This document shows positions 23,780-47,387 of a stretch of 64,000 bases of DNA, in pieces. The stretch spans positions 1 through 64,000 of the forward strand of contig NZ_JFZG01000025.1 in the NCBI RefSeq assembly GCF_000607165.1. Direction: 5' to 3'. Both the position numbers and the translations under genes were made by a program. This stretch comes from Ralstonia pickettii. Lineage in GTDB: Bacteria > Pseudomonadota > Gammaproteobacteria > Burkholderiales > Burkholderiaceae. The notes beneath the pieces are model-generated. The model was not told the DNA's origin, made no database searches, and worked only from the letters and a program-made list of their open reading frames with translations. Numbering within the stretch: position 1 is the first letter of the stretch; every line of letters starts with the position of its first letter.

Positions 23780-24487
23780 ATGGCCGAGTCCAGAACGTTC
23801 GACATCTTCCGCTACGATCCGGACCGTGACACCGCGCCACACATGCAGACGTTCGAGATCGACATCACGTCAACTGACAGGATGCTACTCGACGTCTTGG
23901 TGCGGCTGAAGGCGCTCGATGAAACGTTGAGTTACAGGCGCTCTTGCCGGGAAGGCGTATGCGGTTCAGACGCGATGAACATCAACGGCAAGAACGGTCT
24001 TGCCTGTACGACGAACCTTCTCGATCTGCCACGCCATACGGTTTTGCGCCCGTTGCCCGGCTTGCCGGTCGTCCGCGACCTGATCGTCGACATGACGGCA
24101 TTCTTCAAGCAATACCACTCGATCACGCCATACCTGATCAACGATACGCCACCACCTGAACGCGAACGCCTCCAGTCGCCGGACGAACGCGATCAACTTG
24201 ACGGGCTCTACGAATGCATCCTGTGCGCCTGTTGTTCGAGCGCCTGTCCATCGTTCTGGTGGAACCCCGACAAATATGTTGGCCCGGCGGGGCTTCTGCA
24301 GGCATACCGCTTCCTCGTGGACTCACGCGATGAGGGCACGAATGCACGGCTCGACAATCTCGAGGATCCGTATCGACTGTTCCGCTGCCGCTCGATATTG
24401 AACTGCACCGACGTTTGCCCGAAAGGACTGAACCCAGCGAAGGCGATCGGCGAGATCAAAACCATGCTAGTACGCCGGATCATTTAA
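23780..24487 (+). CDS. sdhB: Orphan succinate dehydrogenase iron-sulfur subunit
   Basis: Iron-sulfur subunit of complex II, 235 residues, normal length. The 2Fe-2S loop reads CREGVCGSD with a further Cys in NGLAC; the 4Fe-4S ligands are in CILCACCSSACP and the 3Fe-4S ligands in CRSILNCTDVCPKG. The start MAESRTFDIFRYDPD follows the usual SdhB N-terminus. No sdhA, sdhC or sdhD is nearby, so this is probably a second copy that could exchange into the housekeeping complex or work under special conditions. It appears to head a short operon with the cupin gene. Confidence 0.88.
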   Translation: MAESRTFDIFRYDPDRDTAPHMQTFEIDITSTDRMLLDVLVRLKALDETLSYRRSCREGVCGSDAMNINGKNGLACTTNLLDLPRHTVLRPLPGLPVVRDLIVDMTAFFKQYHSITPYLINDTPPPERERLQSPDERDQLDGLYECILCACCSSACPSFWWNPDKYVGPAGLLQAYRFLVDSRDEGTNARLDNLEDPYRLFRCRSILNCTDVCPKGLNPAKAIGEIKTMLVRRII

Positions 24488-25207: not shown

Positions 25208-26380
25208 TCAGGCCGCTACAGTCCCAACGGCGATTTGCCTCGGCCTATAGAGCCGCGTATGCAACACGTCCAGGTGTGCCAGCCCTTGCGCGATGCTGGA
25301 CATCGGCAGATAGCTGAAGCACAGCCGGACGTGGTTGAGGCTGGCCGGGCCGTAGTGCTGGCCGTGCACCAAACGCACATCGTGCTCGCGGCGCGCTGCG
25401 TCGATGAAGGCCTGCGCATCGGTGCCAGCCACCAGCCGAACCCAAAACGAGAACCCGCCGCGTGGCATGGTGTAGTCGGGCTCGCAGAAGCGGCTGCCTT
25501 GAAGCAGCTTGTGCAGAGCATCGCGCTTTGCGCGGTAATGCGGGCGTAGCCGCGCGATGTGCGTATCGAGCACGTCCGACTGCATCAGTCCCAGCACCAC
25601 GTTGCTCACGACCGGGCTCACGCCGCCGTCGCACTTGAGCCGCGCGAGTTGGCTGATGATGTCGGGCTCCGCCAGCACCCAGCCTACGCGCAGGCCCGGT
25701 CCCGCCACCTTCGAGATGGAATGCACATTGATCACGTTGCCACCGGACGAAAGCCACTCGGTGGGGCCATCGTAGGGCAGTTCGGCGTAGACCAGATCCT
25801 GGACCAGCGGCACCCCGTGCTGCGCCAGCAGCGCCGCCACGCGGGCCATGTGCGCACGTGGCATATGGCAGCCGGTCGGATTGTGGAAGGCAGGAGTGGT
25901 GTAGTACAGCCTCACGCGGTGCGTGTGACGCAGAGCGGCTTCCAGCGCATCCAGGTCGACGCCGTCTGCTCCCATGCCGAGCTGCACTATGGTCGCCCCT
26001 GCCACCGAGAACGTGCGTAGCGCGCCCAGGTATGACGGGTCTTCGGTCAGCACTACGTCGCCTGGATCGAGGTACAGGTCAGCCAGCAGTTGCACCGCTT
26101 GCGAGGCTCCGTTGGTCAGGATCACCTGGTCTTGCCGCACGCCGTGGCGCAGCGCGATCTGCGTGCGCAGCTCCGGCAGGCCCAGCGCATCGGTGTACTG
26201 CGGCAGGTCGGCCGCCGATACGCCGGTGGCAGTGTCGAAGGCATCCGGCCAGGCAAGCTCTGTGAACAGAGCTGGGTCCGGCAGGCCGTAGGCGAAGTTG
26301 ACGGCGTGCTTGCCGCCCGAGTAGTCGAACGCGGCAAAGTCTTGCGACAGGCGGCTGCGGTGCGAGGGGATCAGGTTCAT
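25208..26380 (-). CDS. PLP-dependent aminotransferase, class I/II
   Basis: Fold-type I aminotransferase of 390 residues, similar in organisation to the 2-aminoadipate/LysN and MocR-type aminotransferase domain. The PLP Lys is K224 in HSISKVAGPGLRVGW, the conserved Asn lies in HNPTG (166-170) and the PLP-binding Asp in QDLVY (about 195). The start lies 3 bases after the MetRS-like gene stop, so it is the last gene of the six-gene operon. It could transaminate the lysine-derived part of the product; the true substrate is unknown. Confidence 0.88.
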   Translation of the reverse strand: MNLIPSHRSRLSQDFAAFDYSGGKHAVNFAYGLPDPALFTELAWPDAFDTATGVSAADLPQYTDALGLPELRTQIALRHGVRQDQVILTNGASQAVQLLADLYLDPGDVVLTEDPSYLGALRTFSVAGATIVQLGMGADGVDLDALEAALRHTHRVRLYYTTPAFHNPTGCHMPRAHMARVAALLAQHGVPLVQDLVYAELPYDGPTEWLSSGGNVINVHSISKVAGPGLRVGWVLAEPDIISQLARLKCDGGVSPVVSNVVLGLMQSDVLDTHIARLRPHYRAKRDALHKLLQGSRFCEPDYTMPRGGFSFWVRLVAGTDAQAFIDAARREHDVRLVHGQHYGPASLNHVRLCFSYLPMSSIAQGLAHLDVLHTRLYRPRQIAVGTVAA

Positions 26381-26383
26381 GGG

Positions 26384-27973
26384 TCAGGCAGGCATGGTCG
26401 TGGCGGCGTGGTCAGGGCGAAAGCGCTCGTAGTAGGCTGCGATAAAGCTGGCGGGCACCGGTGCACTGAAGTAAGGAAAGTCGGCCGTGGCCTTTGGCAG
26501 AGCAGGCTGCACAGCGGACTCCTTGAGCGAGGGCTGCCAAGCCGCGCCAAAGAACTGCTGACCGTAGCGGATCGCTAGCGCCGGCACCACCGGATACAGC
26601 AGGCTCAGGAACACCGACACGCGCTCCGCCTTCCATGCGCCTGTGCTCTCATGTGCCAAGCCCGACTCTTCGAAATACGCGTCGATGGCGTCGAGCGCGT
26701 CCCAGAAGCGCACGTCTTCGATGGCGCGAGCGTAACGCTGGGTGATGCCGCGCAGGACGGGCGAAAGGCCACTGGCATCCACCGTGAGGGCTCCCTCGGC
26801 GTTACGACGCAGCGCGTCTTCCCAGGCGCGCAGATGCGTGGTAGCGGCAATCAGGCCGTCGATCTGGAAATCATTGTCATTACCGCCAAACGGTTTGGCC
26901 ACGCGCGCCAGCGCGTAGCGCAGGACGCTGGGTTCCAGCTCGCGGGCCACCTCGTCGGCCCACAGCGCGTGGTTGCGGCTGGTGGAGAACTTCTCGCCTT
27001 CGAGCTTGTAGAAATCCTGGATCGAATGGTTATCGGGGATGGGGTAGCCGCGCGCGAGCAGGGCTCCGCTCACGCCCACCGTGTAGTAGAAGCGGTTGTC
27101 CTGGCCCATGAAGAACAGCAGGTGCGTGTCGGGGTCGTGCAGCACCGCTTCGGCGTCCAGACCGTCGCGGGCGCATTGCTCACGGATACCCGTGTCGTAA
27201 CACCACAGGCCCTCGAACCAGGTGAGCAGCGTCTGACCAGCCACGGCTTCGGGCTGGTCGAGCACTACGCCGCGGCTGAAGTGGCGCGACATCGGCAGTG
27301 CATGGGCATCGCGAGCCAGCCAGCTGCGCTCTTTTTCGCGGATCACCTCGGGCCACGCGCTCCGCGAGATGGCCTTGTCAAGCGCCTGCGCCAGCAGCGG
27401 CACGTTGAGCACCGCTTGTCGAATCGGCCGCAACGTGAGCGCGTTGCCGCACGTGGCGTGCCGCGCATTGCGCAAGGTAGCGTGTTGCACGGCCAAGCCG
27501 CAGTTTTCGCATAGGTTGCTGTCTGTGGGTGCGCCACAAGCCGGGCAGTTGCCTGCGGCCAGCGAGTCAGCGACGAACTCGTCGCAGTGTGCGCAGTAGA
27601 GTTGCACTCCGTCGCGCACATCTACATAGCCTGCGTCCTGCAACTGGCGGAAGACCGCCAGGGCGTTGTTCTTGTGCGCGGCATTGGAAGTCCGCACGAA
27701 CACGTCGGGTGTTATCTGCAGCGCGCGCAGGCACTGCAGAATTTCATCGATGTGCATCTGTGCAACCTCGTCGACCGGGCGGCCGAGCTTGCGGGCCTTC
27801 ACGAGGGTGTAGGTGCCGTGCTCATCGGCGCCAGTGACGTGGTACGCCCGGTGGCCAGCCATGCGCTGGAAACGCACGAAGACGTCAGTGAGCAGGTAGA
27901 CGCCGCCGATATGGCCGAGGTGCAGCTTGCCATTGGGGCAGGGTGGTGCGGGGCAAACGAAGTAGGTGCGCAT
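26384..27973 (-). CDS. Methionyl-tRNA synthetase-like enzyme, candidate hydrazine synthetase component
   Basis: Class I synthetase of 529 residues with the MetRS fold: HIGH-type motif HLGH at 18-21, GADEHGT at 48-54, a zinc knob with Cys pairs at 127/130, 143/146 and 155/158, and a KMSKS-type motif KFSTS at 328-332. In known N-N bond formation (Spb40 of s56-p1), a MetRS-like domain activates an amino acid and joins it to N6-hydroxylysine, with a cupin domain completing hydrazine formation. Here the cupin is encoded just upstream, 10 bases away, in the same domain order. The ATG at 27973 avoids overlap with the cupin. A role as a second ordinary MetRS is possible but fits the neighbours poorly. 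Confidence 0.85.
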   Translation of the reverse strand: MRTYFVCPAPPCPNGKLHLGHIGGVYLLTDVFVRFQRMAGHRAYHVTGADEHGTYTLVKARKLGRPVDEVAQMHIDEILQCLRALQITPDVFVRTSNAAHKNNALAVFRQLQDAGYVDVRDGVQLYCAHCDEFVADSLAAGNCPACGAPTDSNLCENCGLAVQHATLRNARHATCGNALTLRPIRQAVLNVPLLAQALDKAISRSAWPEVIREKERSWLARDAHALPMSRHFSRGVVLDQPEAVAGQTLLTWFEGLWCYDTGIREQCARDGLDAEAVLHDPDTHLLFFMGQDNRFYYTVGVSGALLARGYPIPDNHSIQDFYKLEGEKFSTSRNHALWADEVARELEPSVLRYALARVAKPFGGNDNDFQIDGLIAATTHLRAWEDALRRNAEGALTVDASGLSPVLRGITQRYARAIEDVRFWDALDAIDAYFEESGLAHESTGAWKAERVSVFLSLLYPVVPALAIRYGQQFFGAAWQPSLKESAVQPALPKATADFPYFSAPVPASFIAAYYERFRPDHAATTMPA

Positions 27974-27983
27974 ATCGGTCAGG

Positions 27984-28313
27984 TCAGTCCCACCAGATGG
28001 AGAGGAATTTGAGGCTGGCATTCGGGTCGGTATTGCGGATGGCGTGTTTCTGGTGCGGCGGCATGTAGAACAACGTTGATTCGCCCACCAGGCGGATCTG
28101 GCCGTCGGCCTCGAACTCGCCGCGCCCCGAGATGAGCACCCACAGCTCGTGCTCGTGGTGCGCGTGCAGATCGACCGCGCCGCCCGGCACCACTTCCACC
28201 ACCGACGTGCCGAACTGCGTCTGCAGGCCCTGCGGCAGGTGCTCCAGCAGGCGGCAGACCAGCACGCCGTACTCGGGCCGCATCATCGTGCGGTCGATCT
28301 GCTTCGCGTACAC
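27984..28313 (-). CDS. Stand-alone cupin, candidate N-N bond forming partner
   Basis: Single-domain cupin of 109 residues. Motif 1 gives metal ligands H50, H52 and E56 (LHAHHEHELW), and motif 2 gives H90 with N94 (PPHQKHAIRN). The start is a GTG preceded by GGGGGA at 8 bases. In the Spb40 family a zinc-binding cupin domain is fused ahead of the MetRS-like domain and catalyses the N-N rearrangement step. Gene order here (cupin then MetRS) mirrors that fusion as two proteins. The match is by motifs and context, not by alignment. Confidence 0.83.
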   Translation of the reverse strand: MYAKQIDRTMMRPEYGVLVCRLLEHLPQGLQTQFGTSVVEVVPGGAVDLHAHHEHELWVLISGRGEFEADGQIRLVGESTLFYMPPHQKHAIRNTDPNASLKFLSIWWD

Positions 28314-28339
28314 GTGTGCATTCCCCCGGGGTTGTCCGC

Positions 28340-29119
28340 TCAGTCGCGGTAGAAGATGCCGTTGGACACCTTCAGGTTATCCATGTCTGCCACCTTGCCC
28401 TCGGGCGGGTTGTAGGCGCGCTTCATGCGGTTGTATTCGGCACGTGTCGGCCCGCCGGTGGAGGCGCGCTGAAACACCAGATACAGCGTGCGGCGCGAGC
28501 GGTCGCTCTTGTTGGGCTCCGAATAATGCGGCGCGTAGTCGTCGAAGATGAAGATGTCGCCGGCCTTCCAGGGCGTTGGTTCCCACATGAAGGTGTCCGC
28601 CACCTCGGTGTCGATCACGCCGCCCTTGTTCATCGGAAACACGCCTTCCTTGTGGCGGCCGGGCGTGAAGAACAGGCCGCCGTTGTTGGGGTCGGAATCG
28701 TCGATGCCGATGGCGACGACTGCGTGCACCATGCGGTCCGGAATCTTGTGCGGGATGTGATAGATGTCCTGGTGCGGACGGTAGCCACCGCTGTCGGGGT
28801 ACTTGAAGATCAGCAGCTCCTTGAGCATGCGCGTGTCTTCGTCAAGCAGCGTCTCGACGGCGCTGCGGATGCGGCCATCGGCCAACAGGGCTTCGCGCAG
28901 GGCATCGTTGTAGTCGAGAAAGTTCTCCACCTTGGAGATGATCTTGCGGTCTTCTTTGGTCTTCTCGAACCACATCATCCACTTGTCGTCGCTCACGTTC
29001 CAGCGGCCGACCTCGTCGACCAGGTTGGAGATGCGCTCGCGCGCGGTCGCGTCGAAGAAGCCTTCCAGCCTGAGATACCCGTCCTGGTGCCACTTTTCCT
29101 GTTGCGCTTCGGTCAGCAT
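28340..29119 (-). CDS. Phytanoyl-CoA dioxygenase-family Fe(II)/2OG oxygenase
   Basis: PhyH-family oxygenase of 259 residues. The iron ligands are H116 and D118 (RPHQDIYH) and H198 (DDYAPHYSEPN), with a basic cluster at 207-210 for 2-oxoglutarate. The ATG at 29119 is preceded by AAGGAGG; an upstream open extension overlaps the MFS gene. As the third gene of the operon it is a likely tailoring enzyme, for example hydroxylating or desaturating the hydrazine-containing product. Confidence 0.88.
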   Translation of the reverse strand: MLTEAQQEKWHQDGYLRLEGFFDATARERISNLVDEVGRWNVSDDKWMMWFEKTKEDRKIISKVENFLDYNDALREALLADGRIRSAVETLLDEDTRMLKELLIFKYPDSGGYRPHQDIYHIPHKIPDRMVHAVVAIGIDDSDPNNGGLFFTPGRHKEGVFPMNKGGVIDTEVADTFMWEPTPWKAGDIFIFDDYAPHYSEPNKSDRSRRTLYLVFQRASTGGPTRAEYNRMKRAYNPPEGKVADMDNLKVSNGIFYRD

Positions 29120-29159
29120 ACGAAATACCCTCCTTGAGAAGAAAGACGAAGGCCGCGCT

Positions 29160-30416
29160 TCAGCGCACGGCCGGTGCGGCCGCCCGCACGCGCAGCGTGG
29201 CCAGCAGCACGACATTGATGGCCACCGCCCCCAGTAGCGCGAGCAGCATGGCGTTGGGGCCCGAGCGGCGGATCAGATGCCCTCCGATGAACGGAAACCC
29301 GAACAGCCCGATGAAGTACGCCAGCGTGAAGATCTGCGAGGTGACGGGCATCGACACGCCCTGTTCGCCAGCCATGTTGACCGCCATGCCGTTGAGCGTG
29401 GAATAGCTCAGCCCGTAGCCCGTGGCGAAGACCACCGTGGCCGCCACGTACAGCAGCGTGCTGCCTGTGTTGGTGATGAACAGCGTCAGCGATGCGGCCG
29501 TCGCCACGAACAGCACCAGTGCCAGCCGCTGCACCGGCATGCGCCCCATCACGCGTGCCAGCGAGAAACGCAGCGCCACGCTGGTTGCCGTGAAGGCCAG
29601 GAAGAACAGATCGGGCCGCAGGTGGCGTGATTCGGCATACACGCTCTGGTAGGTCGACAGCCCCGCAAACACGCACGCGGCAAACCCGATCATGGCGATG
29701 GGCGCGGCGGTGCGCTCGCTCAGTAGCGCCAGCGTTTCACGCGCGGTGATAGCCACACGCGTCATCGGCAGGCCGGGCGCATGGGCCATGGCACGCCGGG
29801 CGGCTTCCACGCACATCGCCGCCGCAACGCAGGCCGCCGCAAACATCACGTAGACGACCGCCACCGAGCCGGTGTACTGCGCCAGCAGGCGGCTGAGCGG
29901 CGTGGCTAGCCCGAGGCCCGCCATCTGCGCGCCCGACACGATGGTCAGATACTGGATGCGCGCGGCTGGCCGCAAGTGGTGGATGATCTGCAGTGGCGCC
30001 AGGATGAAGAACACCGACCAGCCCACGCCCAACAGCATGCCGCCCACGTATGCCGCACGCGCATCGACTGCCACACCGGCAAAGCCCAGCATGGCGAGCG
30101 CCATGGCCAGCGATGCAACAGCGATGGTCGGCATCACGCCGATGCGCTGGGCCACCCATCCCGCCAGGCAGCAGCACACGATGGTGGCAACCATGCCGCT
30201 GGAGATGATGGCACCCGCTGCGGCGCTGTTCATGCCGTGCGCCTTTAGGTAGTCCGGTAACAGGAAGCTGGTGCCATAGGCGGCCGCAATCACGATCGAT
30301 GCGATCAGGAACGGCACGAAGGCGCGCAGCTCCAGCGTGTCGGGCAGCAGGTCAGCATGTGGAGGCACTGTGATGCCAGGCCGGTTGTGGACAGCAGAGA
30401 GCGAAGCAGCGGTCAT
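29160..30416 (-). CDS. MFS transporter, candidate product exporter
   Basis: Major facilitator superfamily protein of 418 residues with twelve hydrophobic segments after a soluble N-terminus of about 25 residues. The A-like motif reads GWVAQRIGVMPT between TM2 and TM3. The start ATG overlaps the TGA of the flavin N-hydroxylase gene. Placement inside a biosynthetic operon suggests export of, and self-protection from, the pathway product. Confidence 0.87.
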   Translation of the reverse strand: MTAASLSAVHNRPGITVPPHADLLPDTLELRAFVPFLIASIVIAAAYGTSFLLPDYLKAHGMNSAAAGAIISSGMVATIVCCCLAGWVAQRIGVMPTIAVASLAMALAMLGFAGVAVDARAAYVGGMLLGVGWSVFFILAPLQIIHHLRPAARIQYLTIVSGAQMAGLGLATPLSRLLAQYTGSVAVVYVMFAAACVAAAMCVEAARRAMAHAPGLPMTRVAITARETLALLSERTAAPIAMIGFAACVFAGLSTYQSVYAESRHLRPDLFFLAFTATSVALRFSLARVMGRMPVQRLALVLFVATAASLTLFITNTGSTLLYVAATVVFATGYGLSYSTLNGMAVNMAGEQGVSMPVTSQIFTLAYFIGLFGFPFIGGHLIRRSGPNAMLLALLGAVAINVVLLATLRVRAAAPAVR

Positions 30417-31747
30417 GCGATGGCGGCGTGGCGGCGCGGGTGGGGGATGGCGTCAAAGCTGAGGCTAAGGTCAACCTCAGCGGCGTCCTCGGCGTGGTCA
30501 AGGACGCCGAGCATTTGCTGGTCCGGTACGTCTGGATAGAACGCATGCCCGAGCAGGCTGTTGATGATGCGGCTGTTGCGATACGCCACCAGTGATAGGT
30601 TGACGCTTTGCAGCCCGTGCTGCACGCGGCCCTGGTTTTGCAGATAGACCGGGCCGGGCATGCCCTGCTCGAAGCGCACGGCGTAGTCGTCGCCGAGGTC
30701 GGGCAGGTCGTCCTCCAAGCAGGCACCGGCCAGCAAAGTTTGCAGGAAGGGCGGCGTGCGCGGCTGGAAGCCGGTTGCCAGCACGATGCGGTCGGCCTGG
30801 ATGCGGCAGCGGTGTGGCGTGGTGAGCGCGGTCAGCCCCACCTGCCAGCGTTCGTCGCGGCGGGTGATGTCTTCCATCACCACGCCTGGCAGCAGGCGGA
30901 AGCTGCCGGCTAGCGTGCCGGCCACGCTGCGTTCGTACAGTACGTCGTACAGACGGTTGCACAGCTCGGCCGAGATGCCGTCGCTGGTGAGTTTCTCCGC
31001 CTCGACAATGGCGCGGCGCTGGCGGATCGGCAGGGCGTGGAAGCGCCGGTTGTAGCCCGGCATGTAGGCTTCGTTGACGAAGGCGTTGTCGTCCATGGCA
31101 AACAGGTTGGCCCGCGAGGTGACCCACGTGATGCGCGCCGTCGGCGCCTGCTCGAGCATATGTTCGACCACCTCGGCGCCGCTTTGGCCGCCGCCTACCA
31201 CCAGCACCTCCTCGCCCCCGCGTAGCGGTGGGCAATCGAGGTAGTTGGCCACGTGATAGACCGTGTCGCCCAGCCATGCGCGGGCGCTGGCCGGGATCTT
31301 CGGCTCCACGCCCACGCCCATCACGATGGCTCGCCCATGGAAGGTGCCGGCGTGCGTGCTGACGCGATAGCCGCCAGCCACGGGCGCTATGTCGATCACC
31401 TCCTCACCAAAGCGCAGCGTACCGAGCTGTTGCGCAACCCACTGGTAGTAGTCGGTGAACTCTCGCCGCGAGGTGGAGGCGCTGCGCTTGTTGACGAAGC
31501 TGTAGAGCCGCCGGTGCACCGCCAGGTAGTTGAGGAACGAGTAGGGGCTGGTCGGGTCGACCAGCGTGACGCAGTCCTTGAGCGGCGAGACCTGTAGCCG
31601 ACCGTTAGGCAGCATCAGCCCTGGGTGCCAGCAGAAAGCGTTGCGCTTTTCCAGGAACAGTGCCCGCAGCGGTGTGGGCGCAATCAGTGCTGCTAGGCTG
31701 AGGTTGAACGGGCCGATCCCGATACCAATTACGTCCAGCATGTCCAT
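30413..31747 (-). CDS. Lysine/ornithine N-monooxygenase (IucD/PvdA-like flavoprotein)
   Basis: FAD- and NADPH-dependent N-hydroxylating monooxygenase of 444 residues, resembling lysine N6-hydroxylase IucD. The FAD motif GIGIGPFNLSLA is at 8-19, the NADPH motif GGGQSGAE at 185-192 and the C-terminal substrate/FAD motif ATGFQPRTPP is present; EKLTSDGISAE is also typical. The start MDMLDVIG is preceded by AGGAAG. It is the first gene of the operon and would supply N6-hydroxylysine to the cupin-MetRS pair. No siderophore synthetase is nearby. Confidence 0.9.
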   Translation of the reverse strand: MDMLDVIGIGIGPFNLSLAALIAPTPLRALFLEKRNAFCWHPGLMLPNGRLQVSPLKDCVTLVDPTSPYSFLNYLAVHRRLYSFVNKRSASTSRREFTDYYQWVAQQLGTLRFGEEVIDIAPVAGGYRVSTHAGTFHGRAIVMGVGVEPKIPASARAWLGDTVYHVANYLDCPPLRGGEEVLVVGGGQSGAEVVEHMLEQAPTARITWVTSRANLFAMDDNAFVNEAYMPGYNRRFHALPIRQRRAIVEAEKLTSDGISAELCNRLYDVLYERSVAGTLAGSFRLLPGVVMEDITRRDERWQVGLTALTTPHRCRIQADRIVLATGFQPRTPPFLQTLLAGACLEDDLPDLGDDYAVRFEQGMPGPVYLQNQGRVQHGLQSVNLSLVAYRNSRIINSLLGHAFYPDVPDQQMLGVLDHAEDAAEVDLSLSFDAIPHPRRHAAIA

Positions 31748-31976: not shown

Positions 31977-32242
31977 GGGGATACTCACCTGTCGGGTGCG
32001 CTGCTTGAGGGACAACCGCCTCTGTTCGTGCGCGCAGTTCTTGCGCATCGCTTTTTTTTGAACTGCCGCAAAAGTAGAAAACGCGTAAGCCGTCCGCAAG
32101 GCGCCGGCACTATGAAGTTTTTTTTCGGCAGAAAAAAATGACGCGCAGCTCCATTGTTCGGTCTACACAGGACGGACAGTGTGTGCATGTGAGGTGACAC
32201 CGCACCAAGAGACAGTACCGCTGGGACGTGGAGAATTCGGCA
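31977..32242. other. Probable promoter region of the hydrazine-type operon
   Basis: This stretch has several A and T runs that contrast with the GC-rich surroundings. On the minus strand TTGCGG, 17 bases, then TACTTT near 32060-32100 is a possible promoter for the operon. I see no gene. The plus-strand edge at about 32243 is where the insertion sequence remnant appears to begin. Confidence 0.35.
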
Positions 32243-32607
32243 TGATTCTCACGATTTGGGTTGGAAGACATGCTATGAAGACGAGCAAGTTCACTGAGGC
32301 GCAGATAGCGTTCGCGCTCAAGCACGGGGGCGTCGGTACTTCGGAGCTGCGCCGGATGCGTCAGCTCGAGGGGGGAACGCCAAGCTCAGGTGGCTGGTGG
32401 CGGACCTAAGCCTGGACTAGGCGATGCTGCAGGACGTGCTGTCAAAAAAGCTCTAAAGCCTTCCCGCAAACGCACGCTGGCTGACGAGTTGCGCGACCGT
32501 TATCGCGTGAGCCTGACCAAGGCTTGCGCGCTGTTTCACATGTTGCGCCCGTTATATGGGTATCGCTCGGTTGCCCGCGAAGCGTCCGCACTGCTTGCGC
32601 GCATCTG
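32243..32607 (+). mobile_element. IS3-family insertion sequence remnant
   Basis: From ATG 32275 the frame reads MKTSKFTEAQIAFALK, the standard start of IS3-type OrfA. It then jumps by an internal deletion to GTSELRRMRQLEGG, and after a frameshift continues as LKPSRKRTLADELRDRY and RPLYGYRSV, which correspond to the OrfA/OrfB junction. No DDE catalytic region remains. The TGATTCTCACGATTTGGG just upstream looks like the left end. It is non-functional and marks a past insertion between the biosynthetic cluster and the metal region. Confidence 0.8.
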
Positions 32608-46205: not shown

Positions 46206-47387
46206 CTAGAACACGCTCAACGTGCCGCTTACCAGCTCGCTGACTAGGTCCGGAAGCGCAGTCAACTCCTGTTTGGCGAGTTCGCGGATTTGCCGCTGCT
46301 GTGCCGGCGAGAGGCCGCCCGCGGCGACCACGTCGATTGCTGCCAGTTGAGGCTGGTCGATGGGCCGGCCGATTGTCGAGAGTAGGCGGACCGTCACGGC
46401 GTTGACGCCATCGACGCCGGCATGGATGCGGCCCGCTAGCCGATGCGCCAGCACGTTGTAGAGCTTGCCGACATGCGCTGCCGGGTTCTTCCCGGCGGCG
46501 GCCTCCAGCGACATGGGCCGGTAGGGGGTAATCAGGCTATTGACGCGGTTTCCCCGGCCAACTTCGCCGTCGTCGCCGTGCTCCGCGCTCAAGCCCGTGA
46601 CGGTCAGGTAGAGTTCGTTCTCGCCGCGCGCTGCAGGGTTATCGAGCGTATTGATCGCGATTTTGCACGCAGGCAGGCGTTCGGCAAGGTAGGCGGAAAT
46701 CCGGCCCTTCAGCGTGAAGTAGTCTTCGGTGTCTTGCACGCATCGGTCGACGAGTGCAAGTGCAACCGTCAATCGCAGATGCGTATCGTGACGGCTGCCC
46801 ATGATCTTGTAATCCAGTCCGGCTACCTCGAAGGCTGTTCGAAAATCGCTGGAACGCAAAATCTTTGCGGCACGGAGCACCGCGTTTTCGAGCGAGGAGA
46901 GCGGCGCGTAGCCGACTCCAAAAGAGGTGTCGTTGGCCAGCGGGAGCGAGGAGGGTGACGTGACGCGCTGAAGGTTCGGGGCCGAGGGCCGGAGGATCGG
47001 CTCAATGCCGATCGCGTTGCCGACGTTGCCCAAGGTCTCGATCAGGTAACCACGGATCGCTTGCTCGACGACCGCCTGGGCCGGGGCCGACGGCAACTCC
47101 GTCACAGGGCCCGAAACGATCAGCCGCATGGGGCGCAGCACGTCACCGCCACCGAATTTTGGTCGGCTGATGCCGCCGATCAGCAGCGCCTTGTCCAGAT
47201 TGAAATGCTGGATGGCCCCATAGCTCCCAAGGTATGCCCGGCATAGGGCACGGGCGGCAGCCTCGACCGCGCCGTCGCAAAGGCTGTCGGGGTGACCGAT
47301 GCCCTTGTGCTCGCACATTTCGGTCTGCGTGGACCATTGCGACGGCACGGCTGTGACCGACAGTGCAATCTCTTCCAGGGCTGGCAT
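46206..47387 (-). CDS. Archaeal-type S-adenosylmethionine synthetase (MAT)
   Basis: Methionine adenosyltransferase of 393 residues of the archaeal family, not the bacterial MetK. Diagnostic stretches are EHKGIGHPDSLCDGAVEA near residue 27, FNLDKALLIGG, DTSFGVGYAPLSSLE, and the C-terminal block TGLSAEHGDDGEVGRGNRV with ITPYRPMSLEAAAGKNP. It makes SAM from methionine and ATP. It is transcribed opposite the neighbouring operons and is probably horizontally acquired. Several SAM-using enzymes lie nearby. Confidence 0.9.
   Translation of the reverse strand: MPALEEIALSVTAVPSQWSTQTEMCEHKGIGHPDSLCDGAVEAAARALCRAYLGSYGAIQHFNLDKALLIGGISRPKFGGGDVLRPMRLIVSGPVTELPSAPAQAVVEQAIRGYLIETLGNVGNAIGIEPILRPSAPNLQRVTSPSSLPLANDTSFGVGYAPLSSLENAVLRAAKILRSSDFRTAFEVAGLDYKIMGSRHDTHLRLTVALALVDRCVQDTEDYFTLKGRISAYLAERLPACKIAINTLDNPAARGENELYLTVTGLSAEHGDDGEVGRGNRVNSLITPYRPMSLEAAAGKNPAAHVGKLYNVLAHRLAGRIHAGVDGVNAVTVRLLSTIGRPIDQPQLAAIDVVAAGGLSPAQQRQIRELAKQELTALPDLVSELVSGTLSVF

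Follow-up and report, generated by a model that had tools for sequence, protein, structure and literature searches.

The stretch of DNA analysed here, called the window throughout, is 64,000 nucleotides of a Ralstonia pickettii contig (NZ_JFZG01000025.1). Between positions 25208 and 31747 it holds six minus-strand genes that follow each other head to tail, with short gaps or overlaps between them (Table 1). They encode a flavin N-monooxygenase (NMO), an MFS exporter, a PhyH-type dioxygenase, a stand-alone cupin, a protein resembling methionyl-tRNA synthetase (MetRS) and an enzyme dependent on pyridoxal phosphate (PLP). The MFS and NMO genes overlap by 4 bp and the genes for the PLP enzyme and the MetRS-like protein are 3 bp apart; all six genes are open and full length, and they form a single tight operon. 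The original prediction, which was made from the letters of the DNA, had described six coupled genes on this strand, and they are found where it placed them, with Pfam matches that agree with every label. Its coordinates stand except for one start: the list of open reading frames (ORFs) began the MetRS-like gene at 28021, within the cupin gene, whereas the most likely start is 27973, which has its equivalent in relatives and gives a protein of 529 aa.

What kind of pathway does this operon encode? In our judgement it is probably a small-molecule pathway that forms a hydrazine by the cupin/MetRS-like route, in a variant that uses the PhyH dioxygenase as its tailoring enzyme.

Table 1. Genes of the operon in the window, with the support for each assignment
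Gene product	Coordinates	Strand	Support
NMO (SidA/IucD/PvdA-type flavin N-monooxygenase)	30413..31747	-	Pfam Lys_Orn_oxgnase E 1.8e-103; KD-motif Lys; SDGIS
MFS exporter, predicted	29160..30416	-	Pfam MFS_1 E 7e-19
PhyH-type Fe(II)/2-oxoglutarate dioxygenase	28340..29119	-	Pfam PhyH E 2.8e-35; conserved residues; fold matches
Stand-alone cupin, predicted Zn enzyme	27984..28313	-	GTG start; PyrN residues; PDB matches
MetRS-like adenylating half of hydrazine synthetase, predicted	26384..27973	-	phmmer 9l8v; KFSTSRNH; trees; columns
Class I/II PLP enzyme, accessory	25208..26380	-	Pfam Aminotran_1_2 E 3.2e-34; 2egy

The N-monooxygenase, cupin and MetRS-like protein

Alongside the cupin and MetRS-like genes, the window encodes a flavin N-monooxygenase of the lysine/ornithine type. 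Sixteen NMOs were aligned and compared with the solved relatives MbtG, PvdA, 7us3, 6xbb and 5o8p. Like MbtG, a lysine enzyme, and PvdA, an ornithine enzyme, the window NMO has a lysine in the LQ.S..KD motif. The same position is alanine in 7us3, a putrescine enzyme, serine in 6xbb, which is labelled 'Monooxigenase' and which we take to be a cadaverine enzyme, and alanine in 5o8p, which is labelled L-lysine 6-monooxygenase of desferrioxamine biosynthesis and presumably prefers cadaverine. The motif lysine, which presumably binds the carboxylate of the substrate, is present in 15 of the 16 aligned NMOs, the exception being that of Robbsia (L059). A second motif, SDGIS, occurs in 12 of the 16 (the window, five members of its clade, L026, L049, L047, L048, L050 and L058) and is lacking in L051, L053, L059 and L061. 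The window NMO agrees with the NMOs that adjoin fused synthetases and RHS1 at this motif, at the motif lysine and at an Asn position; L058 is the Rhodococcus cluster that bears the accession of RHS1. The likely substrate of the window NMO is lysine, hydroxylated at the N6 side-chain amine.

According to PMC8664883, a MetRS-like part forms an O-acyl-hydroxylamine ester, which a zinc cupin then rearranges to an N-N bond. In PyrN, the E56A variant gave no product and H52A gave less than 3%, while H90A and H50A gave about 27% and about 82%; in RHS1, where the residues are D63, H65, E69 and H103, every one of the four alanine variants failed (PMC8664883). The window cupin has all four of the metal and catalytic residues of PyrN (H50, H52, E56 and H90) and three of the four of RHS1, in which the first position is Asp. 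H52, E56 and H90 are invariant in 18 aligned rows, including the RHS1 piece.

How does the MetRS-like protein relate to the housekeeping enzyme, MetG? MetG is encoded by a separate gene on another contig and is about 29% identical to the MetRS-like protein. The best PDB match of the latter by phmmer is 9l8v, the C-terminal domain of PyrN with a glutamyl-AMP analogue (E 7.7e-45), with the archaeal MetRS 1rqg close behind (E 6.5e-43). Its KFSTSRNH motif fits the pattern KFST[SG]RxH, which is found in 26 of 26 synthetase rows; KMSKSRG is found in six of seven MetG rows, the seventh being mis-extracted, and the archaeal 1rqg also has the KFST motif. Anticodon_3 was not matched in the protein by Pfam at E 0.001, an absence that is only suggestive because fused synthetases do show weak matches to this domain. 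The predicted structure (mean predicted local distance difference test score, pLDDT, 64.0) was used at the level of the fold only.

In a first tree, built without the mis-extracted MetG row (L064), the window clade (16 rows, 100/100) is separate from MetG (6 rows, 100/100). A second tree, which omitted L064 and L069 as well as the longest two branches among the synthetases (Rhodococcus and Robbsia) and included a Bacteroides MetG, again shows clean groups of 16 window-clade rows, eight other synthetases and six MetG rows. On the evidence of both trees, membership of the MetG clade is refuted. Because the three groups meet at a single node, the trees do not decide which two of them are sisters. 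Alignment columns, which were counted on the second-tree set with the two synthetases and L069 restored, lean towards the hydrazine synthetases over MetG: among the columns with a majority residue (60% or more) in all groups, 25 unite the window clade with the synthetases, 11 the window clade with MetG and nine the synthetases with MetG, and the strict columns number ten, seven and two, respectively. Since trees and identities leave kinship with the synthetases open, the conserved company of the NMO and the cupin is the stronger argument. The MetRS-like protein is predicted to adenylate an amino acid in hydrazine synthesis. An attempt to read the partner amino acid from the pocket residues was dropped, as the pocket of the clade differs by eye from the fused-synthetase and RHS1-partner rows.

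Could the MetRS-like protein instead be an additional genuine methionyl-tRNA synthetase, such as a resistant copy, with the hydroxylase serving a hydroxamate siderophore? The protein does match MetRS models, 1rqg has the same KFST motif, and an origin from an unsampled MetRS type is compatible with the trees. However, the protein lies outside the MetG clade, with the missing Anticodon_3 match as a merely suggestive addition; the cupin gene adjoins the MetRS-like gene throughout the conserved operon; a cupin and MetRS-like pair of the window clade in L026 and a fused synthetase in L049 are used in the same setting; and Pfam detects no acyltransferase, synthetase for siderophores independent of nonribosomal peptide synthetases (NIS) or nonribosomal peptide synthetase (NRPS) among the six genes. 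Separation from MetG, the company of the cupin and the want of siderophore genes among the six led us to reject this explanation, which we hold to be highly improbable. The original prediction had named the hydroxylase, cupin and MetRS-like protein as hydrazine-forming machinery and had listed clustering with canonical MetRS in a phylogeny among the outcomes that would speak against it. The position of the protein in the two trees agrees with it, and the NMO residues, the cupin residues, the phmmer match to 9l8v and the column counts (25 against 11) lend it further support.

The PhyH dioxygenase and the flavin oxidase

Judged by its occurrence, the PhyH dioxygenase is the signature part of the cluster. 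In a plasmid collection it was matched in 57 records, 35 of them with an identity of at least 70% (34 of these full length, one partial), with the next best at 34%; when compared by accession, all 35 are also among the listed matches of the MetRS-like protein. In a phylum-wide sample it was present in three of 398 genomes, including that of the window. Across 19 sequences, H116, D118, H198, R209 and R210 do not vary, and by general knowledge of the fold we take them to be the Fe and 2-oxoglutarate ligands. Foldseek matches of the predicted structure (mean pLDDT 71.7, again used only as a fold) include EctD, proline hydroxylase H11, GriE and others.

As the original prediction had said, the oxidase dependent on flavin adenine dinucleotide (FAD) is missing: tblastn searches of the 64-kb window with three queries taken from hydrazine loci elsewhere, one saccharopine dehydrogenase and two FAD oxidases of the DAO type, gave no match at E 1e-5. 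The scan was extended to 58 loci, with five query genes drawn from five of the oxidase-bearing loci. Clear genes for a FAD oxidase or saccharopine dehydrogenase are found in seven loci without PhyH (L047, L048, L050, L051, L052, L054 and L058), with a weaker match in L060; annotation tables or Pfam confirm such genes, save in the unannotated L052. Some synthetase loci without PhyH, such as L053 and L059, have neither enzyme. Of 41 PhyH loci, several of them near-duplicates, 40 have no oxidase or dehydrogenase match at E 1e-5, and the match in the remaining one, L026, is a fragment.

The fused-synthetase loci L047, L048, L050 and L054 have the order NMO, FAD oxidase, synthetase, and L049 (Mesorhizobium 131-3-5, from Lotus) has NMO, PhyH, synthetase, with a PhyH that is 78% identical to that of the window. 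Relaxed searches revealed oxidase remnants on both sides of the L049 PhyH gene. The gap before it holds a 5' piece that is 63% identical over 163 residues to a piece in M. albiziae L026 and that matches a Sinorhizobium oxidase with E 2.2e-8 in a search of whole loci; a 3' piece (39% over 74 residues, E 6.9e-5) lies in the gap after it. In L049, a stretch of about 1.2 kb surrounding PhyH, from an NMO tail to roughly 130 bp into the cupin, is 71-76% identical in DNA to the M. amorphae cluster, which is of the type found in the window. L026 has an NMO of the L049 type (85%, and 34% to that of the window) and an oxidase 5' piece preceding PhyH; after this piece, 3 kb comprising PhyH, cupin and MetRS-like genes are 85% identical to M. 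amorphae.

We read these footprints as a window-type segment that probably recombined into an oxidase gene, after which the lineages would have kept different synthetases, both with PhyH and neither with an intact oxidase. The swap suggests that the pair of cupin and MetRS-like protein and the fused synthetase are interchangeable, and that PhyH plausibly performs the job of the hydrazine-releasing FAD oxidase and replaces it.

An alternative with the same core is that PhyH hydroxylates an intact hydrazine of lysine and an amino acid, that the PLP enzyme acts next, and that the product keeps both halves and is perhaps cyclic. Hydroxylation by an EctD-like or proline hydroxylase-like enzyme followed by a PLP step has parallels in the VioC/VioD and GntB/GntC pairs. 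The fold neighbours of PhyH include hydroxylases of free amino acids and small molecules, and the PLP enzyme matches the MppQ, GntC and VioD models, among solved structures MppQ 8tn2 with E 1.4e-39. However, a MocR model scores above those three, and the nearest solved relative is 2egy, a 2-aminoadipate aminotransferase of the LysN type (E 5.2e-44). Moreover, no gene for a PLP enzyme of this kind was detected in L026, L049 or the Rhizobium loci, although most of these keep PhyH, and the PhyH gene of L049 sits between oxidase-gene fragments. We regard an intact product as rather unlikely.

Distribution of the cluster and NifA-type promoters in rhizobia

A single genome scan yielded 37 related loci. 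At a query coverage of at least 70%, 17 of them, including the near-twin L010, have the full order NMO, MFS, PhyH, cupin, MetRS-like protein and aminotransferase on one strand. The hosts of the full order are Bradyrhizobium, Paraburkholderia, Pseudomonas fuscovaginae and the near-identical strain; over all 37 loci they are Bradyrhizobium, Paraburkholderia, Pseudomonas fuscovaginae, Mesorhizobium and Rhizobium. MFS and NMO are swapped in two Mesorhizobium loci, and the remaining 18 loci are incomplete, run off contig ends, have decayed or are only remotely related. A recurring six-gene order had been put forward as a check of the original prediction, and the cluster is a widespread conserved type rather than a chance assembly.

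Has the cluster been inherited within the genus of the window? A match other than MetG (E 1e-40) was found in only two of its 16 genomes, that of the window and that of the near-twin 'Burkholderiaceae bacterium 26' (L010), whose MetRS-like protein is 98-99% identical to that of the window. The window protein groups with Bradyrhizobium, with Paraburkholderia outside (99/99), which points to spread of the cluster by horizontal transfer.

Another explanation would be a decayed or non-functional island, with no product in this strain. Decay is evident in copies from bean-nodulating Rhizobium (L007, L009, L027-L035, L043 and L044), in which the MFS gene is truncated and PhyH or NMO is missing in some; the MetRS-like match is only half length in L043 and L044, and p42d has lost genes. 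Multi-copy repeats also lie just upstream of the operon in the window. Against this, none of the six window genes is truncated or interrupted, their order is kept in relatives, and we consider decay improbable here. The repeat at 32195-32605, directly upstream of the operon, has multi-copy relatives in other genomes of the genus, mostly at about 84-90% DNA identity, and is likely to be an insertion-sequence remnant at the edge of an island. An extra gene beside the operon, at 23783-24487, encodes a succinate dehydrogenase/fumarate reductase iron-sulfur subunit; two further contigs of the genome carry related DNA. An S-adenosylmethionine synthetase gene is found at 46206-47387.

A Pfam survey of 20 flanking ORFs from L013, L016, L038, L021 and L039 gave no partner present in all five; M16-peptidase genes flank the cluster in L013 and L016. 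The R. etli copy adjoins nodD2/nodD3. MocR/PdxR-like regulators adjoin the cluster in Mesorhizobium/Rhizobium (L005, 3714-5135; L006, 3741-5144), and a MocR match lies downstream of the P. fuscovaginae cluster (L039, near 12814). The regulators of Mesorhizobium/Rhizobium are divergent from the cluster, match PdxR and other MocR models below their cut-offs, and are not part of the window operon. Such regulators might sense damage to PLP by hydrazine.

In some rhizobia, expression of the cluster seems to be coupled to nitrogen fixation. Thirty-eight upstream regions were examined for a sigma-54 site at -24/-12 (scores of 10 or 11 out of 11 counted) and for the NifA element TGT-N10-ACA upstream of it. 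Ten have a -24/-12 site outside the coding sequence of the cluster (eight Bradyrhizobium, L026 and L049), and 18, including the window, have no such site. Sites scoring at least 10 in ten Rhizobium-type rows were rejected as promoters, as they sit at, or just inside, the end of the MFS frame (the DNA was read for five of the ten). A site together with an exact element was found in seven of the 38 regions, all rhizobial, although the seven rows are related and are not seven independent events. The distance from element to site is exactly 100 bp in five Bradyrhizobium, 61 bp in L026 and 58 bp in L049. When 600-bp regions of nine loci were shuffled 2,000 times each by a first-order Markov model, the site alone appeared in 132 of 18,000 shuffles and the pair of site and element in four of 18,000. 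L013 (near 13543) and L019 (near 13513) have further NifA-element/sigma-54 pairs on the downstream side of the operon, and the L013 pair precedes two M16-peptidase-like genes.

One of these promoters has a published counterpart. In M. loti R7A, the gene msi280, annotated as 'L-lysine 6-monooxygenase', has the promoter CTGGCACGTTCGATGCA (PMC3538637), and the L049 promoter consists of the same 17 letters. An msi280::lacZ fusion gave 371.6 Miller units in nodules and 7.3 without nifA2 (PMC3538637). L049 also has the promoters published there before msi276 and, in reverse, by msi281. An R7A synthetase is entered as Q8KGM6 in the review PMC11705231, and R7A presumably shares the PhyH and synthetase genes of L049. 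Mesorhizobium 131-3-5 has an ACC deaminase gene in the neighbourhood of the cluster locus, and acdS is NifA2-dependent in R7A (PMC3538637).

Proposed pathway and comparison with known systems

How might the six proteins work together? The residues and homology of the NMO suggest that it would begin by making N6-hydroxy-lysine. By analogy with PyrN, the MetRS-like protein would adenylate a second amino acid and esterify the hydroxylamine oxygen with it, and the zinc cupin, which has the residues for the step known from PyrN and RHS1, would rearrange the ester to the N-N bond. PhyH would then oxidise the hydrazine, most likely by hydroxylating a carbon beside the nitrogen; the C-N bond would break as a result and release a free hydrazino acid. 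The gene swap in Mesorhizobium suggests this step for PhyH, and the FAD oxidase carries it out in other pathways. Export of the product would fall to the MFS protein, and the PLP enzyme, in the clusters that have it, might recycle the lysine-derived co-product or trim the product. The cluster would move among plant-associated Proteobacteria and would have been placed under NifA/sigma-54 control in some rhizobia.

Several observations count against this scheme. For the clade of the window, the chemistry is argued from genes and homology, and the role of the PLP enzyme is a guess. The cupin residues form a metal motif that is general among cupins and is seen in 4rd7 and 4mv2 too, and RHS1 (5uqp, E 6.3e-7) is only the second PDB match of the window cupin after 4rd7 (E 2.6e-12), so that the PyrN residue set is necessary but not specific. 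The archaeal MetRS 1rqg ranks above PyrN in a four-row profile search and in Foldseek, and both trees, with their three groups joined at one node, were built without an archaeal MetRS or another root. Identities of the window clade are alike for the other synthetases (22-28%) and MetG (22-25%), and seven strict columns ally it with MetG, against ten with the synthetases. PhyH may hydroxylate without cleaving; the swap proves no more than retention of PhyH and loss of the intact oxidase. Upstream of the window operon, no NifA/sigma-54 site was found. Finally, the R7A msi280 mutant scored + for nitrogen fixation (PMC3538637), and therefore the product would be dispensable for fixation.

If the PhyH step is indeed hydrazine release, it would be a novel enzymatic route to this end and an aid in predicting what uncharacterised clusters make. 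The cluster also links bacterial N-N bond biosynthesis with the NifA regulon of root-nodule bacteria, two subjects that are apparently unjoined in the open-licence literature: among the open-licence papers listed, mostly represented by titles and the openings of abstracts, none was found that connects hydrazine synthetases with nodules or with PhyH, and the name msi280 was found in a single open-licence paper. M. loti R7A, with its published hydroxylase mutant, is a tractable symbiont in which the product is directly testable. A bolder proposal, for which we would claim little likelihood, is that PhyH represents the first hydrazine-releasing enzyme that uses Fe/2-oxoglutarate rather than a flavin, and that a free hydrazino acid is made in or around plant tissue, in rhizobial nodules under NifA. 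There it could disable PLP enzymes, such as the 1-aminocyclopropane-1-carboxylate (ACC) synthase of the plant, resulting in less ethylene, or serve as a rhizopine-like private nutrient. Lowering ethylene is the role of rhizobitoxine.

Other hydrazine loci surfaced in the searches. On a Streptomyces sp. SAT1 plasmid (L047, 558-8638), a lysine 2,3-aminomutase and a PGM1-related ligase belong to the hydrazine synthetase cluster, an arrangement that we take to fit negamycin. Klebsiella variicola plasmid pBM374-1, from a human faecal isolate (L061, 4617-7801), has a small set of NMO, cupin and MetRS-like genes. Robbsia andropogonis plasmid p1 (L059, 955-7210) carries a hydrazine-synthetase cluster of another kind, in which a diaminobutyrate transaminase gene is joined by a second one of the aminotransferase family; as its NMO is without the Lys of amino-acid hydroxylases, a diamine substrate is likely. 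This cluster may resemble the type of Ral1-Ral2 from Ralstonia solanacearum CFBP2957, a synthetase possibly from the same genus as the window, which is known here by its table row alone in PMC11705231 (Matsuda 2024), where it is listed as a hydrazine synthetase. Ral1-Ral2 may be of another type than the window cluster, because among 16 genomes of the genus only the window and its near-twin show a non-MetG match at E 1e-40.

Among characterised systems, Spb38/Spb40/Spb39 of s56-p1 biosynthesis and the triacsin and azaserine pathways join N6-hydroxylysine to an amino acid through a cupin/MetRS-like synthetase (PMC11705231), as proposed here. In that account, Spb40 is a fused cupin-MetRS, whereas the window cupin is separate, and the FAD oxidase Spb39 frees hydrazinoacetic acid, whereas the window has PhyH and no oxidase (PMC11705231). 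PyrN and RHS1 (pyrazomycin and Rhodococcus jostii, respectively; PMC8664883) likewise combine an NMO, a MetRS-like protein and a zinc cupin; the RHS1 cupin is a separate protein, as in the window, and the MetRS-like protein of the window is related to the PyrN domain 9l8v. In contrast to the window, these systems use glutamate and a downstream enzyme of the saccharopine-dehydrogenase type; the window has no such gene, and PhyH, MFS and PLP-enzyme genes are found instead. The closest parallel in a symbiont is the msi280 locus of M. loti R7A (PMC3538637), seen through L049, which shares with the window an NMO, the same PhyH and a hydrazine synthetase. Identity to the window proteins is 34% for the NMO of L049 and about 26-30% for its fused synthetase, and, unlike the window, L049 has a NifA/sigma-54 promoter and FAD-oxidase fragments, with no MFS or PLP enzyme found in its operon.

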